Source: Pseudomonas sp. Irchel s3b2 (GTDB taxonomy: Bacteria > Pseudomonadota > Gammaproteobacteria > Pseudomonadales > Pseudomonadaceae). Taken from it: DNA of 64,000 nt. Every line of letters starts with the position of its first letter. Within the stretch, counting starts at the first letter, position 1. A program made the translations under genes and the position numbers. Under the pieces are notes generated by a model. It searched no databases, was not told the origin of the DNA, and saw nothing but the letters and a program-made list of their open reading frames with translations. The stretch is taken from NCBI RefSeq assembly GCF_900187445.1, contig NZ_FYEB01000016.1, positions 1 through 64,000 of the forward strand. The letters are read 5' to 3'. This document shows, in pieces, positions 55,620-63,674 of the stretch.

Positions 55620-56309
55620 TTAGCGCCTGCGCTCATGCGTCGCTCTATAACTACTCGGCGCGACGCCAAAGAAGTCCCGAAAGCGCATATGGAAGTTGGC
55701 GAAACTACAGAAGCCGGTCGCAATCGCGATATCGGTGATCGGCCGATTGCTCTGCAAAATAAGCTGTCGCGCTCGAGTCAAGCGCAGCTCAAGGTAGTAA
55801 CGTGTGGGCGTGGCGCCCACGAAACGACAGAAGCGACGTTCCAATTGTCGTCGGGAAATGTTCACACACTCAGCCAGTTCATCGATCGATAACGGCTCTT
55901 CGATGTTCTTTTGCATCAGCTCTAAAGCGAGCTTCAGGGTTTGTGGCAAGGTGGGGTCAGAGTCAACGATGACAGTCGATATCCCAGAAACTTCAGAGCT
56001 CTGATCGCAACTGAGTATTTCCTCGACAGCATGGGTCAGTGACACGCCTTGTTTAGCGGTGATGAGCTCCAGCATCATTCGTAACGAGCTGCTGGCGCCG
56101 GCGCACGTGATACGGTTTTTGTCTATTACGTGAGTTCGACAAGAGACCAGGACTTTGGGGAAAACATCCTCCATCATTGCTCGCCCATCTGGATGGAAGG
56201 CGCACTCGACACCGTCCATTAGCTGAGCTTCCGCCAGGAAAAATGCACCGTTCCACAATCCCCCCATGGTCGCGCCAAGAGAGGCGACATTACGATGAGA
56301 TTTCTCCAT
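55620..56309 (-). pseudogene. 5'-truncated GlxA-type AraC-family regulator
   Basis: A 229-codon frame. The C-terminal AraC helix-turn-helix pair is intact (SIDELAECVNISRRQLERRF, then PITDIAIATGFCSFANFHMRF). The upstream DJ-1/PfpI-like domain begins midway (GATMGGLWNGAFFLAEAQLMDG), so about 100 N-terminal residues are missing compared with full GlxA-type proteins of around 330. The ATG at 56309 lies at the junction with another truncated gene and is probably fortuitous. A short product keeping DNA-binding ability cannot be excluded. Confidence 0.75.
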
Positions 56310-56314
56310 TTTTT

Positions 56315-56920
56315 GGCCCTAATCAAATGCCGTCTTCTCTGCCGCAATTCGAGAAGGTTGCCGAAGATTACCATTCCTCTGTATTGGCACTCGCGCGAAT
56401 GCTTATTGGCGGGATCGCGCTGAGCTTGGGTTTACCACAAGATTACTTTGAACATCTTCAGCGTAAGCCCATCACTATTCAACGGATTTTGCGTTACCCG
56501 CCCCAGATCGGAAGGGTTTCCCAAGAGGAGATCGGTATCGGGGCACACACGGACTATGGTTTCTTGACGGTCCTGTCCCAAGATGCAGTGGGCGGTTTGC
56601 AAGTCAGGAACCGTGCAGGGGAGTGGGTTACTGCCCCACCAGTCGAAGGCACTTTTATCGTCAATATTGGTGACCTGGTTCAAACCCTCACCAACGATCG
56701 CTACACCTCAACAATGCATCGCGTCATAAATACTAGCGGTCTAGAGCGCTATTCAATTCCTTTCTTTATTGATTTGGATTTTGATGCAGTTGTTGAGCCT
56801 GTGCCAACCTGCGTGAGTGAGGCTCAACCCGCGAAGTACGAAGCGTACACTTGTGGTAAACACAAATTTAAGCGTTTCGTTGATAGCTATGCGCATCTTC
56901 AAGAAATCGAGAAGGTATGA
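56315..56920 (+). pseudogene. 5'-truncated 2-oxoglutarate/Fe(II) oxygenase (isopenicillin-N-synthase-like)
   Basis: Homology starts abruptly at GPNQMPSSLPQFEKVAEDYH and runs to the natural end. The iron ligands HxD (GAHTDYGF) and the distal His (STMHRVIN) plus the Arg of RYSIPFF remain, but the N-terminal third (about 100 residues) is missing. The open frame extends upstream only through antisense of the GlxA-type gene. Probably inactive. Confidence 0.75.
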
Positions 56921-57179: not shown

Positions 57180-57488
57180 CTAAGCCGGGATCGTTGATCC
57201 AAGGTGCAAAACGGTCGCAGGGCCTGCCCTGAAGGTAGGACTGTATGCGTCAGCTGCAATCATATGAGGCGTAATGTCATGAGCTTCCAGGGCTGATTTC
57301 GACGCCCATCGCTCAATCAAAACAAATTGGTCTTCATCGTCAGTGACCCTATGAAGGTCGTATTGCAGGCACCCATCTTCATTTCTGACAAGTGGGGCAA
57401 GTTTTTCAAATGCATCAATTTGCTCTTGTCCTCGCCCCGCCTGCGTAGAAATCAAAATTATCAGCTTCACTTCACTAGCCATAAACAT
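57180..57488 (-). CDS. Antibiotic-biosynthesis-monooxygenase-family (YgiN-like) protein
   Basis: A 102-residue ABM-domain protein. Its pattern is EVKLIILISTQAGRGQEQIDAFEKL, then EDGCLQYDLHRVTDDEDQFVLIERW and an H at LEAHDITPHM, the usual dimeric ferredoxin-like fold. Related proteins are quinol monooxygenases or haem-degrading enzymes; the role here is unknown. It stands alone beside IS and pseudogene remnants. Confidence 0.82.
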   Translation of the reverse strand: MFMASEVKLIILISTQAGRGQEQIDAFEKLAPLVRNEDGCLQYDLHRVTDDEDQFVLIERWASKSALEAHDITPHMIAADAYSPTFRAGPATVLHLGSTIPA

Positions 57489-57613: not shown

Positions 57614-60600
57614 TTACGCCAGTTCTGCTGTTTCAGTTTGCCTCTGAGTGACAGGACTGATCTTGAACCAGATGGAGTACATCGCTGGCAGGAACACTAG
57701 CGTCATGATGGTTCCGACGAACGTACCTCCGATCAGTGTGTAGGCCAGGGTCCCCCAGAAGACGGAGTGTGTCAGGGGGATGAACGCCAGGATGGCTGCC
57801 AGCGCTGTCAACAGCACCGGGCGAGCACGTTGTACTGTGGCTTCGATCACTGCGTGGAACGGATCCAGTCCTTCTTGTGCGTTGTGATGGATTTGCCCGA
57901 TCAGAATCAGCGTATTACGCATCAGAATGCCAGACAGCGCGATCAGCCCAACCAGGGCGTTGATACCAAACGGTTGCTGGAAGATGAGCAATGTCGGCAC
58001 CACGCCAATCAACCCCAGCGGCGCGGTGAGAAACACCATGATCATCGCCGAGACCGAACGTACCTGCAGGATGATGATCAGCAGCGTGATGGCAATCATG
58101 ATCGGGAGCAGCGGCAATATCGCCTGGCCAGCCTTGCCCGACTCCTCGATTGCACCGGACTGCTCGATACGATACCCATCAGGCAACTTGTCGACGACCG
58201 GCTGCAGTTCCTTTGTGATCACGCTCGAGACGTCCGGTGGCTGCAAGCCTTCGGCAATATCGCCGCGCACGGTAATGGTTGGTGTGCGGTCACGACGCCG
58301 TAGGATCGGATCCTCCATACGCACGTCGACTTCCCCTACCTGGGACAGCGGAATCCGCTGGCCCGCCGTGCCCACGAGTGTAAAGCCTTCTATTTTTGCA
58401 GGGTCGAGCCGGATATCACCCGCAGCACGCCCGATCACCTGCACCGAACGAATGTCTTCACGAACTGCCGTGATGGGTACCCCCGCGAGCAGGAACTGCA
58501 GCTGCTGCGCGACAGCACTGGACGTCAGCCCCACCGCCTGCAAGCGGTCCTGATCCAGGGTGAAATGCAACGTCGGCGTAAGCGAGCCCCAGTCGGTGTT
58601 GACGGTTCTCATCATCGGGCTCGCCTGCATCACTTCCTGTACCTGGCCGGCGATCTCGCGCAATTTTGTCGGATCAGGTCCCATTACCCGGTAGGCAACA
58701 GGGAATGGCGAATACGGACCAAACACCAGTTGAGTCACCCTGACACGGGCTTCTGGGGCAAGTCCTTCAGCAACTGCCTCGCGAATACGGAACTTGAGGG
58801 CCTCACGCGCCTCCTGACTGTCCGTCAGCACCACAACCTTCGCGAATGATGGGTCAGGGAGTTCCGGCGCCATCGCCAAGTAGAAGCGCGGTGCACCTTG
58901 CCCGATATAGGCTGTGACGATTTTTGCTTCAGCCTGCTTTTGCAGCCAGGCCTCTATCTTGGCGGTGGTGGCGCTGGTCTGCTCGATGGAGGTTCCATAG
59001 GGCATTTGCACTTCGACCAACACCTCAGGACGGTCTGAGGTAGGGAAGAACTGCTTCTTGACCAGGCTCATGCCGAGAATCGCTACGACAAACGTAGTAA
59101 TAACAGTACCGGCCACTAGCCATTTGCGGGCGATGACGCGCGTCAAAATCTGGCGGAAGCGGTTGTAATTAGGGGTGTTATAGATGGCCGCGTGACCACC
59201 TTCGACCTTCTTGATCTTCGGCAACATCTTCACGCCCAGATAGGGGGTAAAAACCACCGCAACTACCCATGATGCAATCAGGGCAATGCCCACGATCCAG
59301 AACATATTGCTGGTGTACTCGCCGGCTGTCGACTGTGCGAAACCGTTGGGTAAAAAGCCGATGGCGGTCACCAGCGTACCGGAAAGCATCGGTGCGGCCG
59401 TATGACTCCAGGCATACGCGGAAGCTTTGATGCGGTCGTAGCCTTCCTCCATTTTTACCACCATCATTTCGATAGCAATGATGGCGTCGTCCACCAGCAG
59501 TCCAAGCGCCAGAATCAACGACCCGAGGGTAATACGGTCAAAGTTCTTTCCAGTGGCCGCCATCACCACAAACACTACGGCCAGTGTCAATGGCACAGCC
59601 GCCGCCACCACAATACCTACGTGCCAGCCCATGCTGAGAAAGCAGACAAGCATCACAACCAGCAGGGCGACGAAGAACTTGACCATGAACTCGTCGACGG
59701 CCGAACTGATATTCACGGACTGATCAGTGACCTTGGTGAGCGTCATGCCCAGCGGCATGCCTTCATTGATCCTGGTCGTCTCCGCGTCCAATGCCTTGCC
59801 CAGGTCAAGACCGTTCCAGCCCTCACGCATCACGACCCCCAGCAGCAGGGCCTCCTCACCGTTATTACGCACGAGGAAGGTGGCCGGATCTTCATAGCCA
59901 CGCTCGACCGTAGCCACGTCCGAGAGCTTCAGTGTTCGACCTTGCACCGCAAGAGGTGTGTCACGAATCTTCTGCACCTTATCGAATGCACCGTCGAGGC
60001 GGAGGAAGATTTGCGGCCCATCGGTTTCAATTGAGCCGGCAGGCGTAAGCGCATTCTGATTGTTCAGCGCGGCAAAAATGTCCTGGGGAGATACACCCAG
60101 CGTGGCCAACCGATCATGAGAGAAGGAAACAAAGATGCGTTCGACCTGCTCACCAATGATATTGACCTTCTTCACACCCGGCACGTGCAACAGGCGCTGG
60201 CGCAACGATTCCGCATCACGCACCAACAGTCGCTGCGGCTCGCCTTTGGCTTTCAAGGCGAAAAGCGCAAATGTCACATCTGAAAACTCGTCGTTGACCA
60301 TCGGGCCAATGACACCCGCCGGTAGCTTGATGGCTTCATCGTCGAGCTTTTTACGCGCCTGATAGAACTCCTCCTGCACTTGGGAAGGCGGTGTGCGATC
60401 GAGCAGTGTCACCATGGTGAAGGCAAGACCTGGACGGGTGTAGGTTTCCGTGCGGTCGTACCACTTCAGTTCTTGCAGGCGTTTTTCAAGTGGCTCTGCA
60501 ACCTGATCTTGCATCTCCTGCGCCGTAGCGCCTGGCCACGCGGTTATGACCGTCAACTGCTTTACCGTAAACGGAGGATCTTCCGCACGCCCCAGCTGGA

Positions 60601-60703
60601 AGAACGACAGGATCCCTGCAACAGCGATCAGCAAGATCAGGAATACCGTGATCGAGTGCTCGCGAACGGCGATCGCCGAAAGGTTGAAGCGCCCCTGGCT
60701 CAT
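57614..60703 (-). CDS. RND efflux pump inner-membrane transporter (TriC-like, HAE-1 family)
   Basis: A 1029-residue proton-driven pump with the two-fold pattern of six-helix blocks and large periplasmic loops. The start MSQGRFNLSAIAVREHSITVF and the segments GRAEDPPFTVKQ and LGLLVDDAIIAIEMMV (the helix-4 Asp pair used for proton relay) resemble the triclosan pump TriC as I remember it. The start overlaps the upstream membrane-fusion gene (ATGA). It forms a tripartite system with the divergent outer-membrane gene. Confidence 0.93.
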   Translation of the reverse strand: MSQGRFNLSAIAVREHSITVFLILLIAVAGILSFFQLGRAEDPPFTVKQLTVITAWPGATAQEMQDQVAEPLEKRLQELKWYDRTETYTRPGLAFTMVTLLDRTPPSQVQEEFYQARKKLDDEAIKLPAGVIGPMVNDEFSDVTFALFALKAKGEPQRLLVRDAESLRQRLLHVPGVKKVNIIGEQVERIFVSFSHDRLATLGVSPQDIFAALNNQNALTPAGSIETDGPQIFLRLDGAFDKVQKIRDTPLAVQGRTLKLSDVATVERGYEDPATFLVRNNGEEALLLGVVMREGWNGLDLGKALDAETTRINEGMPLGMTLTKVTDQSVNISSAVDEFMVKFFVALLVVMLVCFLSMGWHVGIVVAAAVPLTLAVVFVVMAATGKNFDRITLGSLILALGLLVDDAIIAIEMMVVKMEEGYDRIKASAYAWSHTAAPMLSGTLVTAIGFLPNGFAQSTAGEYTSNMFWIVGIALIASWVVAVVFTPYLGVKMLPKIKKVEGGHAAIYNTPNYNRFRQILTRVIARKWLVAGTVITTFVVAILGMSLVKKQFFPTSDRPEVLVEVQMPYGTSIEQTSATTAKIEAWLQKQAEAKIVTAYIGQGAPRFYLAMAPELPDPSFAKVVVLTDSQEAREALKFRIREAVAEGLAPEARVRVTQLVFGPYSPFPVAYRVMGPDPTKLREIAGQVQEVMQASPMMRTVNTDWGSLTPTLHFTLDQDRLQAVGLTSSAVAQQLQFLLAGVPITAVREDIRSVQVIGRAAGDIRLDPAKIEGFTLVGTAGQRIPLSQVGEVDVRMEDPILRRRDRTPTITVRGDIAEGLQPPDVSSVITKELQPVVDKLPDGYRIEQSGAIEESGKAGQAILPLLPIMIAITLLIIILQVRSVSAMIMVFLTAPLGLIGVVPTLLIFQQPFGINALVGLIALSGILMRNTLILIGQIHHNAQEGLDPFHAVIEATVQRARPVLLTALAAILAFIPLTHSVFWGTLAYTLIGGTFVGTIMTLVFLPAMYSIWFKISPVTQRQTETAELA

Positions 60704-61809: not shown

Positions 61810-61856
61810 AGATTCCCTTACTTAAAAAATAGGACATGCGCCACATTCTCAGGCTG

Positions 61857-61880
61857 GTGACCATATCTGTCAATGGTCAC
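61857..61880. promoter_or_regulatory. Operator over the adaptor-pump promoter
   Basis: GTGACCAT-N8-ATGGTCAC, perfect 8-bp arms. On the minus strand it contains the -35 hexamer TTGACA (61868-61873); 17 bases further lies GAGAAT (61845-61850) as -10, followed by the adaptor ATG at 61809. A repressor bound here would block the promoter. Confidence 0.82.
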
Positions 61881-61968
61881 AATCTGGAAGTGTTGGGAAT
61901 CTCTGTGTTTACGCAAAAGCAGCCGTATTCATTGGAGAGAATTTTGAGGCCTGATCAAATGGCGTTGA

Positions 61969-61996
61969 TTGACAGGATGTGACCATAACGTAATAT
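61969..61996 (+). promoter_or_regulatory. Promoter of the outer-membrane channel gene
   Basis: TTGACA (61969-61974, perfect -35) and TAATAT (61991-61996, -10) with a 16-base spacer. The operator at 61979-62002 covers the spacer and -10. Confidence 0.75.
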
Positions 61997-62002
61997 GGTC
62001 AC
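61979..62002. promoter_or_regulatory. Operator over the outer-membrane channel promoter
   Basis: GTGACCAT-N8-ATGGTCAC, the same arms and spacing as at 61857-61880; the perfect symmetry extends to 10-bp arms (TGTGACCATA/TATGGTCACA). It overlaps the -10 element. This is the size and form expected for a TetR-family operator. Confidence 0.85.
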
Positions 62003-62028
62003 AAATATCCTCGATTGAAGGAACCTCA

Positions 62029-63489
62029 ATGCCTCTCCATCGTCCCATTGCTCTTTTGGTGAGCGCCAGCTTAATGGCAGGCTGCGCGGTCGGTCCGGAC
62101 TATCAACGTCCAGACGCTCCTCTTTCGGATCGTTACGTGGGTCAATCTGCTGTCGAGCAGAGGCCCGTAGTGACGCCGGCCAGTCTTGTGGCCTGGTGGG
62201 AAGGTTTTGGTGATCCAGTGTTAACCAACTTCGTCTCCAAGGCTCTTGAGCAGAATCTGGATCTGGCGCAGGCGTGGGCGCGAGTCACGCAGGCGCGGGC
62301 GGGATTGGGTGCGGCAAATGCCGCTTTACTGCCCTCGGGGAACATCAGTGGCCAGGCTGCGCGCTCCTACCAGTCAATCGAAACCCCGCTCGGCCAGGTG
62401 TTGAACTCAACGCCTGGCTATGATCGGTACGCAAGCGCCTATGAGGTTAATCTCAGTGCTGGCTGGGAGGTTGATGTCTTTGGCGGCCTGCGACGCGGAC
62501 GCGAAGCCGCACTCGCCGAGTACCAGGCTTCTGAGGCGGGCGTCGCTGCCACACGACTGGCCATCGCCGCGCAAACCGCCGATATCTACATCACTATCCG
62601 CGGATTGCAGGCCCGGTTGGACATTGCGAACCGACAAGTCAGAACGCAGCAGGGACTGCTAGAGAAAGTCCGCTTGCTCTACGGCAAGGGCCTCGCTGCC
62701 AACTATCAGGTTCACCAGACCGAGGGAGCACTATCGCAGGTCCAAGCGACAGTGCCGGTCCTGCAGACCGGACTGGATGCTGCCACGAATGCACTGGATG
62801 TAATGCTCGGTACACCACCAGGCACTCATCGCACGCAACTGGCAAATGCAGGGAGCATTCCTCTTGCGCCGCAGATAAAGACCACGGGAACGCCGGCCGA
62901 TCTGCTGCGCCGCAGGCCCGATCTCATCGTGGCTGAGCGCCGACTTGCGGCCTCCAATGCACGCATCGGGCTGGCGATTGCTGAGTACTACCCGAAATTC
63001 TCCCTCAGCGCATTGCTGGGAAGTGCCACGACCGTCTCCGGCGGCAACCTTTTCACCGGTGGAGCCAGCCAGTCGGCGGGCGTACTGGGGCTGCGCTGGA
63101 GGCTTTTCGACTTTGGCCGGATAAATGCTCAAATCGATCAAGCCAAGGGACAGGAAGCCGAAGCCCTGGCCGCTTACCGTCAGTCCGTATTACGCGCCAC
63201 CGAGGATGTTGAGAATGCCTTCTCCGCCCTGGTGAATCGGGAAGCTCAGGCAACCACCCTGACTGGAGGCGAGGCATCTCTGGCACAGGCTCGCCAATCG
63301 TCATTCATTGCCTACGAGAAAGGCACAGCCAGCCTGATCGATGTTCTGCACGCCGACGAAACGATGCTGCAGGCTTCCGATGCGCGAGCACAGGCGCGAA
63401 CGGAATCGGCACGGGCGGCGGTCGCAGCATTCAAGGCGCTCGGTGGTGGTTGGCAGCCTCCTGAGGCCCGGTCTGTGGCGACTCGATGA
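62029..63489 (+). CDS. Outer-membrane efflux lipoprotein (OprM/NodT family)
   Basis: A 486-residue channel with a lipoprotein signal (LLVSASLMAGCAVGPDY, acylated Cys). It has the two-fold outer-membrane-efflux repeats (WEGFGDPVLTNFV...AALLPSGNISG and GTPADLLRRRPDLIVAERRLAASNARIG). ATG 62029 follows AAGGAAC; the upstream frame covers the promoter and is not coding. Divergent from and co-regulated with the pump genes. Confidence 0.93.
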   Translation: MPLHRPIALLVSASLMAGCAVGPDYQRPDAPLSDRYVGQSAVEQRPVVTPASLVAWWEGFGDPVLTNFVSKALEQNLDLAQAWARVTQARAGLGAANAALLPSGNISGQAARSYQSIETPLGQVLNSTPGYDRYASAYEVNLSAGWEVDVFGGLRRGREAALAEYQASEAGVAATRLAIAAQTADIYITIRGLQARLDIANRQVRTQQGLLEKVRLLYGKGLAANYQVHQTEGALSQVQATVPVLQTGLDAATNALDVMLGTPPGTHRTQLANAGSIPLAPQIKTTGTPADLLRRRPDLIVAERRLAASNARIGLAIAEYYPKFSLSALLGSATTVSGGNLFTGGASQSAGVLGLRWRLFDFGRINAQIDQAKGQEAEALAAYRQSVLRATEDVENAFSALVNREAQATTLTGGEASLAQARQSSFIAYEKGTASLIDVLHADETMLQASDARAQARTESARAAVAAFKALGGGWQPPEARSVATR

Positions 63490-63543
63490 TTTAACCCCAA
63501 TCATCGTTTTGACCTGGGCCGCGCAGGACGAGCGTATTGCCAT

Positions 63544-63567
63544 GTGACTATTTCAGATAAAAGTCAC
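63544..63567. promoter_or_regulatory. Third, degenerate operator-like site
   Basis: GTGACTAT-N8-AAAGTCAC follows the layout of the two operators with two or three changes. It lies 55 bases past the stop of the channel gene, between it and the convergent TetR gene, with no obvious promoter nearby. A small hairpin GGGCA-AATAAA-TGCCC follows at about 63573-63588. It may be a decoy, a decayed operator or chance. Confidence 0.4.
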
Positions 63568-63674
63568 ATAACGGGCAAATAAATGCCCTTCGACGGCTGG
63601 AGGAAGGGCAAAGTGAAAAGCCGATTGGGTGATATGTCGCTCAGGCCAGTAGGCGTTCGACCGTTAGCTGAAGA

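Follow-up and report, generated by a model that had tools for sequence, protein, structure and literature searches.

Candidate TetR operators at an RND efflux locus of Pseudomonas sp. Irchel s3b2, including the probable relic of a lost FadL-type gene

Genes and palindromes at the efflux locus

The window, i.e., the whole stretch of 64,000 nt that was analyzed (Pseudomonas sp. Irchel s3b2, NZ_FYEB01000016.1, positions 1 to 64,000), carries an RND efflux locus whose features are collected in Table 1. According to profile matches, the tripartite set is complete at this locus, with genes for the permease, the periplasmic adaptor, and the outer-membrane factor (OMF). The operon has a single adaptor gene, which shares 4 bp with the start of the permease gene; on the 5′ side of the adaptor gene lies the divergent channel gene, whose outer_NodT score was taken with a longer open reading frame (ORF) starting at 61969, and on the 3′ side of the permease gene lies an ABM-domain ORF (57180-57488). 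The first-pass annotation had called the pump TriABC-like. This label does not suit a locus with one adaptor, its own NodT-type channel, and a permease for which MexK (854.6 bits) is a nearer solved relative in the PDB than TriC (6vej; 768.5 bits), these two being the nearest solved permeases. The tetR gene crosses the window edge; its product contains the domains TetR_N (PF00440, 6.9e-13) and TetR_C_27 (PF17935, 3.4e-9), both above cut-off. Upstream of tetR, past operator 4 and on the same strand as tetR, a gene of the ornithine cyclodeaminase/mu-crystallin family is located (contig 64474-65517; L005 8475-9518). At the far side of the pump genes, an ORF for an AraC-type regulator (55620-56309, minus strand) overlaps head to head with a 2OG-Fe(II) oxygenase ORF (56177-56920, plus strand). 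Both presumably lack the usual N-terminal parts of their families, which resembles a deletion or rearrangement junction near 56310.

The pattern GTGACCAT-N8-ATGGTCAC occurs in the window in two perfect copies and in a third one with 3 mismatches, just as the first-pass annotation had described, and the exact core GTGAC-N14-GTCAC is common to all three sites. In 100 dinucleotide shuffles, the mean number of matches was 0.20 and the largest was 2; none had three. The annotation had also proposed a genome search for further copies, which revealed five exact cores in 6,218,707 bp, four of them at the locus. The fourth precedes tetR just outside the window (operator 4, Table 1), and the fifth (C9:80731) overlaps a 246-aa ORF. 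Exact cores and 2-mismatch matches to the 8+8 pattern gave no sign of a wider regulon in the genome: the fifth core overlaps an ORF of at least 100 aa, and so do both of the 2-mismatch matches. The bare core was present in 124 of the 144 genomes searched (own genome included), where a reversed control pattern was mostly commoner; since the core is not rare, its frequency is no proof, and it is clustering and position that bear the evidence.

The promoters in Table 1 are consensus predictions. The promoter scan gave 2 promoter-like hits against 1.3 expected, which taken alone is weak evidence. The class consensus of the relatives described below contains both arrangements, namely TTGACa and gAgaAT at the operator of the pump and, spanning that of the channel, TTGACA-N16-TAATAT. 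As a prediction, the earlier placement of one copy over the pump -35 and one over the channel -10 thus holds. What does not hold is the "identical geometry" that had been ascribed to the two divergent promoters, because the operator sits on the -35 element of one and on the -10 element of the other.

Table 1. Features of the efflux locus (window coordinates unless marked as contig coordinates)
Feature	Position	Strand	Basis or remark
RND permease, 1029 aa, MexK/TriC class	57614..60703	-	Pfam ACR_tran 1.8e-148
Periplasmic adaptor (MFP), 369 aa	60700..61809	-	RND_mfp TIGR01730, 199.6 bits (cut-off 94.9)
Predicted pump promoter	61845..61873	-	Promoter scan; -35 TTGACA 61873-61868, 17 bp, -10 GAGAAT 61850-61845
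Putative operator 1, perfect, over predicted pump -35	61857..61880	.	Pattern match; conserved in relatives
Predicted channel promoter	61969..61996	+	Promoter scan; -35 TTGACA 61969-61974, N16, -10 TAATAT 61991-61996
Putative operator 2, perfect, over predicted channel -10	61979..62002	.	Pattern match; conserved in relatives
Outer-membrane channel (NodT-type OMF), 486 aa	62029..63489	+	outer_NodT TIGR01845, 313.4 bits (cut-off 210.05)
Deletion scar, 25 bp matching relatives' SDR gene 44 bp from its 3′ end	63500..63524	.	BLAST and offset comparison
Putative operator 3, 3 mismatches, probable former fadL promoter-operator	63544..63567		Arms intact; -35 core TTGAC now TTATC
Possible intrinsic tetR terminator, GCCCTTC-N11-GAAGGGC-ATTTATTT	63577..63609	-	Read from sequence; ends 9 bp before operator 3
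TetR repressor gene, 206 aa	63675..64000, on to contig 64295	-	TetR_N and TetR_C_27
Putative operator 4	contig 64334-64357		334 bp beyond window edge; 38 bp upstream of tetR start

Conservation of the sites and the regulator reading them

Relatives of the locus were chosen by similarity of the TetR protein alone; the set comprises the best 80 of at least 512 loci, with 1,566,890 bp in total. Within these best 80, the arms with a spacer of 14 were found at 202 sites distributed over 80/80 loci, whereas every other spacer from 8 to 21 yielded 0 to 7 sites each, and the conserved sites all fall at the same few places. Specifically, an exact core lies upstream of the adaptor gene in 76/76 loci having an adaptor, upstream of the channel gene as a site of its own in 60 of the 62 loci with an OMF gene (the exceptions being L087 and L104), and upstream of tetR in 52/80 loci, all within the same best 80 of at least 512. 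In L087, the site within 300 bp of the channel gene is that of the pump and was not scored for the channel. When the 202 sites were allotted to genes, some of those in divergent loci were credited to two genes at once; the allotment was repeated by nearest start. From the 28 loci of the best 80 of at least 512 in which tetR has no exact core before it, autoregulation appears to be less general than control of the pump. Six loci from outside Pseudomonas (Dechloromonas, Pseudogulbenkiania, Methyloversatilis, Sedimenticola, Zoogloea, and a Rhodocyclales MAG), with tetR 66 to 70% identical, retain two sites each. Two loci (L068 10690 and L076 10711) possess tetR and operators without an intact pump in the locus, L076 retaining a 70-residue permease match. 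A second TetR gene, 53 to 60% identical, is located between channel and adaptor genes in L057, L059, L108, L109, L110, and L111, with operators of the same kind on either side; with 6/80 loci (best 80 of at least 512) in this state, the reading protein is not unique everywhere.

More distant loci, 20 in number, were hand-picked from tetR matches at or below 64% identity. In these 20, a spacer of 14 accounted for 31 sites and the other spacers from 10 to 18 together for 1. The exact core was present in 15/15 of the loci whose TetR has the recognition helix FSKAY[IV]YKF, and in 0/5 of those in which the segment reads I[TS]TAYIYRF. Four of the latter five adjoin a permease 68 to 72% identical to that of the window. 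The changed helix goes along with lower overall identity to the window TetR (38 to 46%, vs 53 to 63% in the same-helix loci), so that helix and general divergence are confounded in this comparison. The loci with the changed helix (L129, L130, L131, L134, and L141) represent a sister TetR subfamily without the motif. L129 features the palindrome TTGTTTACA-TAATTAAAATA-TGTAAACAA beside tetR in place of the motif, and a palindrome search across this subfamily gave this one clear palindrome and no spacing in common. Of the computed evidence that the sites are read by the TetR protein at the window edge, this agreement between helix and motif is the strongest. Together with the conservation of the sites and the operator before the repressor's own gene, it makes the single regulator that the first-pass annotation had proposed for both divergent promoters, namely this TetR, very likely.

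The sites could instead belong to another regulator such as CRP/Vfr, with half-sites TGTGA...TCACA, to which TTGTGAC/GTCACAA bears a resemblance. CRP half-sites are spaced by 6, whereas TGTGA and TCACA are 16 apart here; the spacer is fixed, the sites occur at 80/80 loci found by this tetR alone (best 80 of at least 512), and the motif is missing where the recognition helix of TetR differs. We consider a reader other than the neighboring TetR very improbable, and CRP/Vfr was rejected as a candidate on its half-site spacing. The permease scores given above speak for another rival, in which the locus is MexJK-MexL or TriABC-OpmH and the palindromes are the known operators of that system. Comparison with a genome containing a MexJK pair (G460; permease at 2005 bits to MexK) argues otherwise: the window permease and adaptor are 42% and 36% identical to this pair, the TetR encoded divergently from mexJK matches the window TetR significantly only over 71 DNA-binding residues at 32%, and the mexJK region (2,001 bp) contains no GTGAC-Nn-GTCAC with n from 8 to 21. 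An identity with either system, one of which differs moreover in having two adaptors, has a very low probability in our estimate. MexJK/MexL was rejected for its pump identities, the lack of a shared operator in the 2,001 bp compared, and a regulator that is not orthologous to the MexL type, and TriABC for the single adaptor and the closer relation of the permease to MexK.

Origin and fate of operator 3

Among the relatives, two main layouts were distinguished. In one of them, the pump follows directly after tetR (at most 250 bp from the tetR end to the adaptor start), which applies to 28 of 81 rows; a single site serves channel and tetR in 23 loci of the best 80 of at least 512. In the other layout, tetR is followed by a FadL-type gene (Pfam OMPP1/FadL/TodX), intact in 24 of the 81 rows. 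Four of these 24 have an acyl-CoA thioesterase-like gene before fadL, and 11 have a full SDR gene beyond it. The distance from the tetR stop to the start of the fadL operator is 84 to 114 bp in 22 of these 24 loci, and 42 and 218 bp in the other two. In the window, where tetR and channel gene are separated by 185 bp, operator 3 lies 107 bp past the tetR stop, and the first 134 bp of this gap, through operator 3, align at 82% to the region between tetR and fadL of L039. Consistently, the window row groups with L039 and L042, both possessing fadL, in the tetR tree.

The remainder of the gap contains a deletion scar. BLAST matches of the scar were found in 7 loci and are short (19 to 27 bp, E 0.06 to 2.7 each). 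With all other offsets along the SDR gene as the control, offset 44 was the best of all in 17/17 full-SDR loci, with a mean of 19.1 identities of 25 compared to 12.2 for the next offset. At offset 44, the identity amounts to 18 to 22 of 25 in 13 Pseudomonas loci and 15 to 16 in 4 others. From the gap alignment and the SDR scar, it follows that a deletion has probably removed fadL here, together with almost the whole SDR gene; the -35 element inside operator 3 has decayed. The third copy, taken in the first-pass annotation for a control site of this pump, is accordingly reinterpreted: rather than controlling this pump, it occupies the position at which a FadL-type gene has its operator-promoter in relatives. 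A paralogue of fadL is present elsewhere in the genome (G000:C17:975813-977081, L119; 65% identical to the FadL protein of L039), and in its 4,269-bp locus even the best site, located about 1.2 kb upstream, has at least 2 arm mismatches.

On the tetR tree (81 rows; a short gene and a quick tree), the state of fadL requires at least 18 changes, 10 of them forced by starred branches, in a count that does not tell gain and loss apart. With the fadL labels shuffled, the mean was 20.9 changes, and a count as low as 18 was reached in 45 of 500 shuffles; on a tree this short and poorly resolved, the label therefore shows scarcely any clustering. A history of repeated fadL losses is one reading that fits; strain-to-strain exchange or errors in the tree could inflate the number of changes as well. 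Loci were scored as without intact fadL if there was no alignment over 380 residues downstream of tetR. This includes L101 and L067 (321 and 305 residues), which may be frameshifts or partial copies.

In the 24 loci with fadL, the arms deviate at 2/240 positions and the -35 core TTGAC at 0/120. In 25 of the 29 rows without intact fadL, a site with up to 3 arm mismatches was found, with deviations at 12/250 arm and 43/125 core positions; the stretch that best matched the consensus of the fadL operators was taken as the site, an ascertainment that also applies to the pairwise comparison below. The four rows with more than 3 arm mismatches (L069, L070, L075, and L081) are outside the 25, L075 keeping half a site, and the 25 include L059 (a spurious match with 3 arm mismatches) and L108 to L111, of which L109 to L111 have SDR next and L108 was grouped with them. 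For a pairwise comparison with the nearest relatives having fadL, 20 loci without intact fadL were used (L059, L069, L070, L075, L081, and L108 to L111 dropped). The arms had changed at 10/200 positions (5 of the changes in the fadL+ partner), compared to 43 expected, and the core at 90/280, at a mean flank divergence of 0.22. In the pairs with tetR identity of at least 90%, there were 8/110 arm changes vs 18 expected (p 0.004), while pairs of two fadL+ loci gave 6/240 for the arms, 49/336 for the core, and 0.19 for the flanks. As partners were reused and near relatives are not independent, the p values are not those of independent events. The figures are suggestive of arms that are mostly preserved and of a promoter part that diverges more than the sequence flanking it.

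Several explanations of this pattern were considered. What preserves the arms of operator 3 might be not TetR binding but an RNA hairpin located at the 3′ terminus of either the channel or the tetR transcript. Of 200 shuffled versions, 198 folded less well than the stretch 63529-63599, in which the arms pair into a hairpin. The terminator hairpin of tetR also appears in the computed fold (z-score of the whole stretch, -0.50); the terminator scan, with a loop limit of 8, did not list 63577-63609, whose loop is N11. Conservation extends, however, to the arm letters themselves, beyond mere pairing, no U run follows the arm hairpin in the direction of the channel transcript, and the sites persist in L103, L105, and L106, loci without an OMF gene by tblastn. 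An RNA element thus appears improbable. That operator 3 is a passive remnant without function, its arms intact by chance and recency, has in our view close to an even chance. The deletion scar adjoins the operator, and no recognizable site is present in 5 of the 25 loci that lack intact fadL once the direct-pump layout and L108 to L111 are set aside, indicating that the site is not essential; the deficit of arm changes in the above pairs, with their reused partners, speaks against a merely passive state. We propose only tentatively, at odds below even, that selection has retained the operator after repeated losses of fadL, as a repressor site that has lost its -35 and sits without a promoter between convergent genes. 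If the operator is under such selection, the -35 was perhaps lost actively, since it would otherwise drive antisense transcription into the channel gene, and with TetR bound the site would serve either as an auxiliary operator, looping to the sites at distances of about 0.8 and 1.5 kb, or as a block between the convergent genes. The unusual point of the locus is in any case an operator apparently retained without its promoter.

Proposed regulation and comparison with known systems

Taken together, we assign a probability of roughly 0.84 to the following reading of the sequence data: pump, channel, and tetR are controlled by TetR through operators, and the additional site is the relic of a lost FadL-type gene. 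The repressor would bind the 24-bp operators via their GTGAC-N14-GTCAC arms. With operators on the -35 of the adaptor-permease operon, on the -10 of the channel gene, and 38 bp before tetR, three units would be closed together, RNA polymerase presumably being blocked sterically at the pump -35 and the channel -10, and tetR would be autoregulated via operator 4. A ligand removing the repressor would then open pump, channel, and tetR together. The operators of QacR and TtgR hold two dimers, and by analogy the wide 24-bp operator may accommodate two dimers per site. The company of a FadL-type porin, an acyl-CoA thioesterase-like enzyme, and an SDR leads us to guess that substrate and ligand are hydrophobic, perhaps fatty acid-like, rather than only biocides.

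In this way, three palindromes turn into a testable regulon with one repressor, a motif of fixed spacing, a defined recognition helix, and a set of genes. The regulon is very likely real, with its likely regulator already named in the first-pass annotation. The repeated absence of the FadL gene with operator arms retained provides a natural test for roles of operators beyond local promoter control. Among the titles and abstract openings listed in searches of open-licence papers, no description of the locus or the motif was found; one may nevertheless be in print.

The MexJK-MexL system of Pseudomonas aeruginosa resembles the window locus in having a TetR repressor beside an adaptor-permease operon and a permease of the same class. 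It differs in that the MexL-type protein is related in its DNA-binding part only and no matching operator is present; according to PMC6018408, its operon is without a channel gene, whereas the window locus has its own channel and four putative operators. The permease class is likewise shared with TriABC-OpmH of P. aeruginosa, which requires two adaptors according to Mima 2007, as cited in PMC9323910. Unlike that system, the window locus has one adaptor and its own NodT-type channel. Local repressors of the TtgR, SmeT, and PmeR type are TetR proteins with inverted-repeat operators over the promoters of RND pumps. The window TetR resembles them in its TetR-type domains and in the inverted repeats at its predicted target promoters and before its own gene. 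The window family is distinguished from this type by an operator sequence and spacing of its own and by relatives that place a cassette of FadL, thioesterase, and SDR genes under the same candidate operator.
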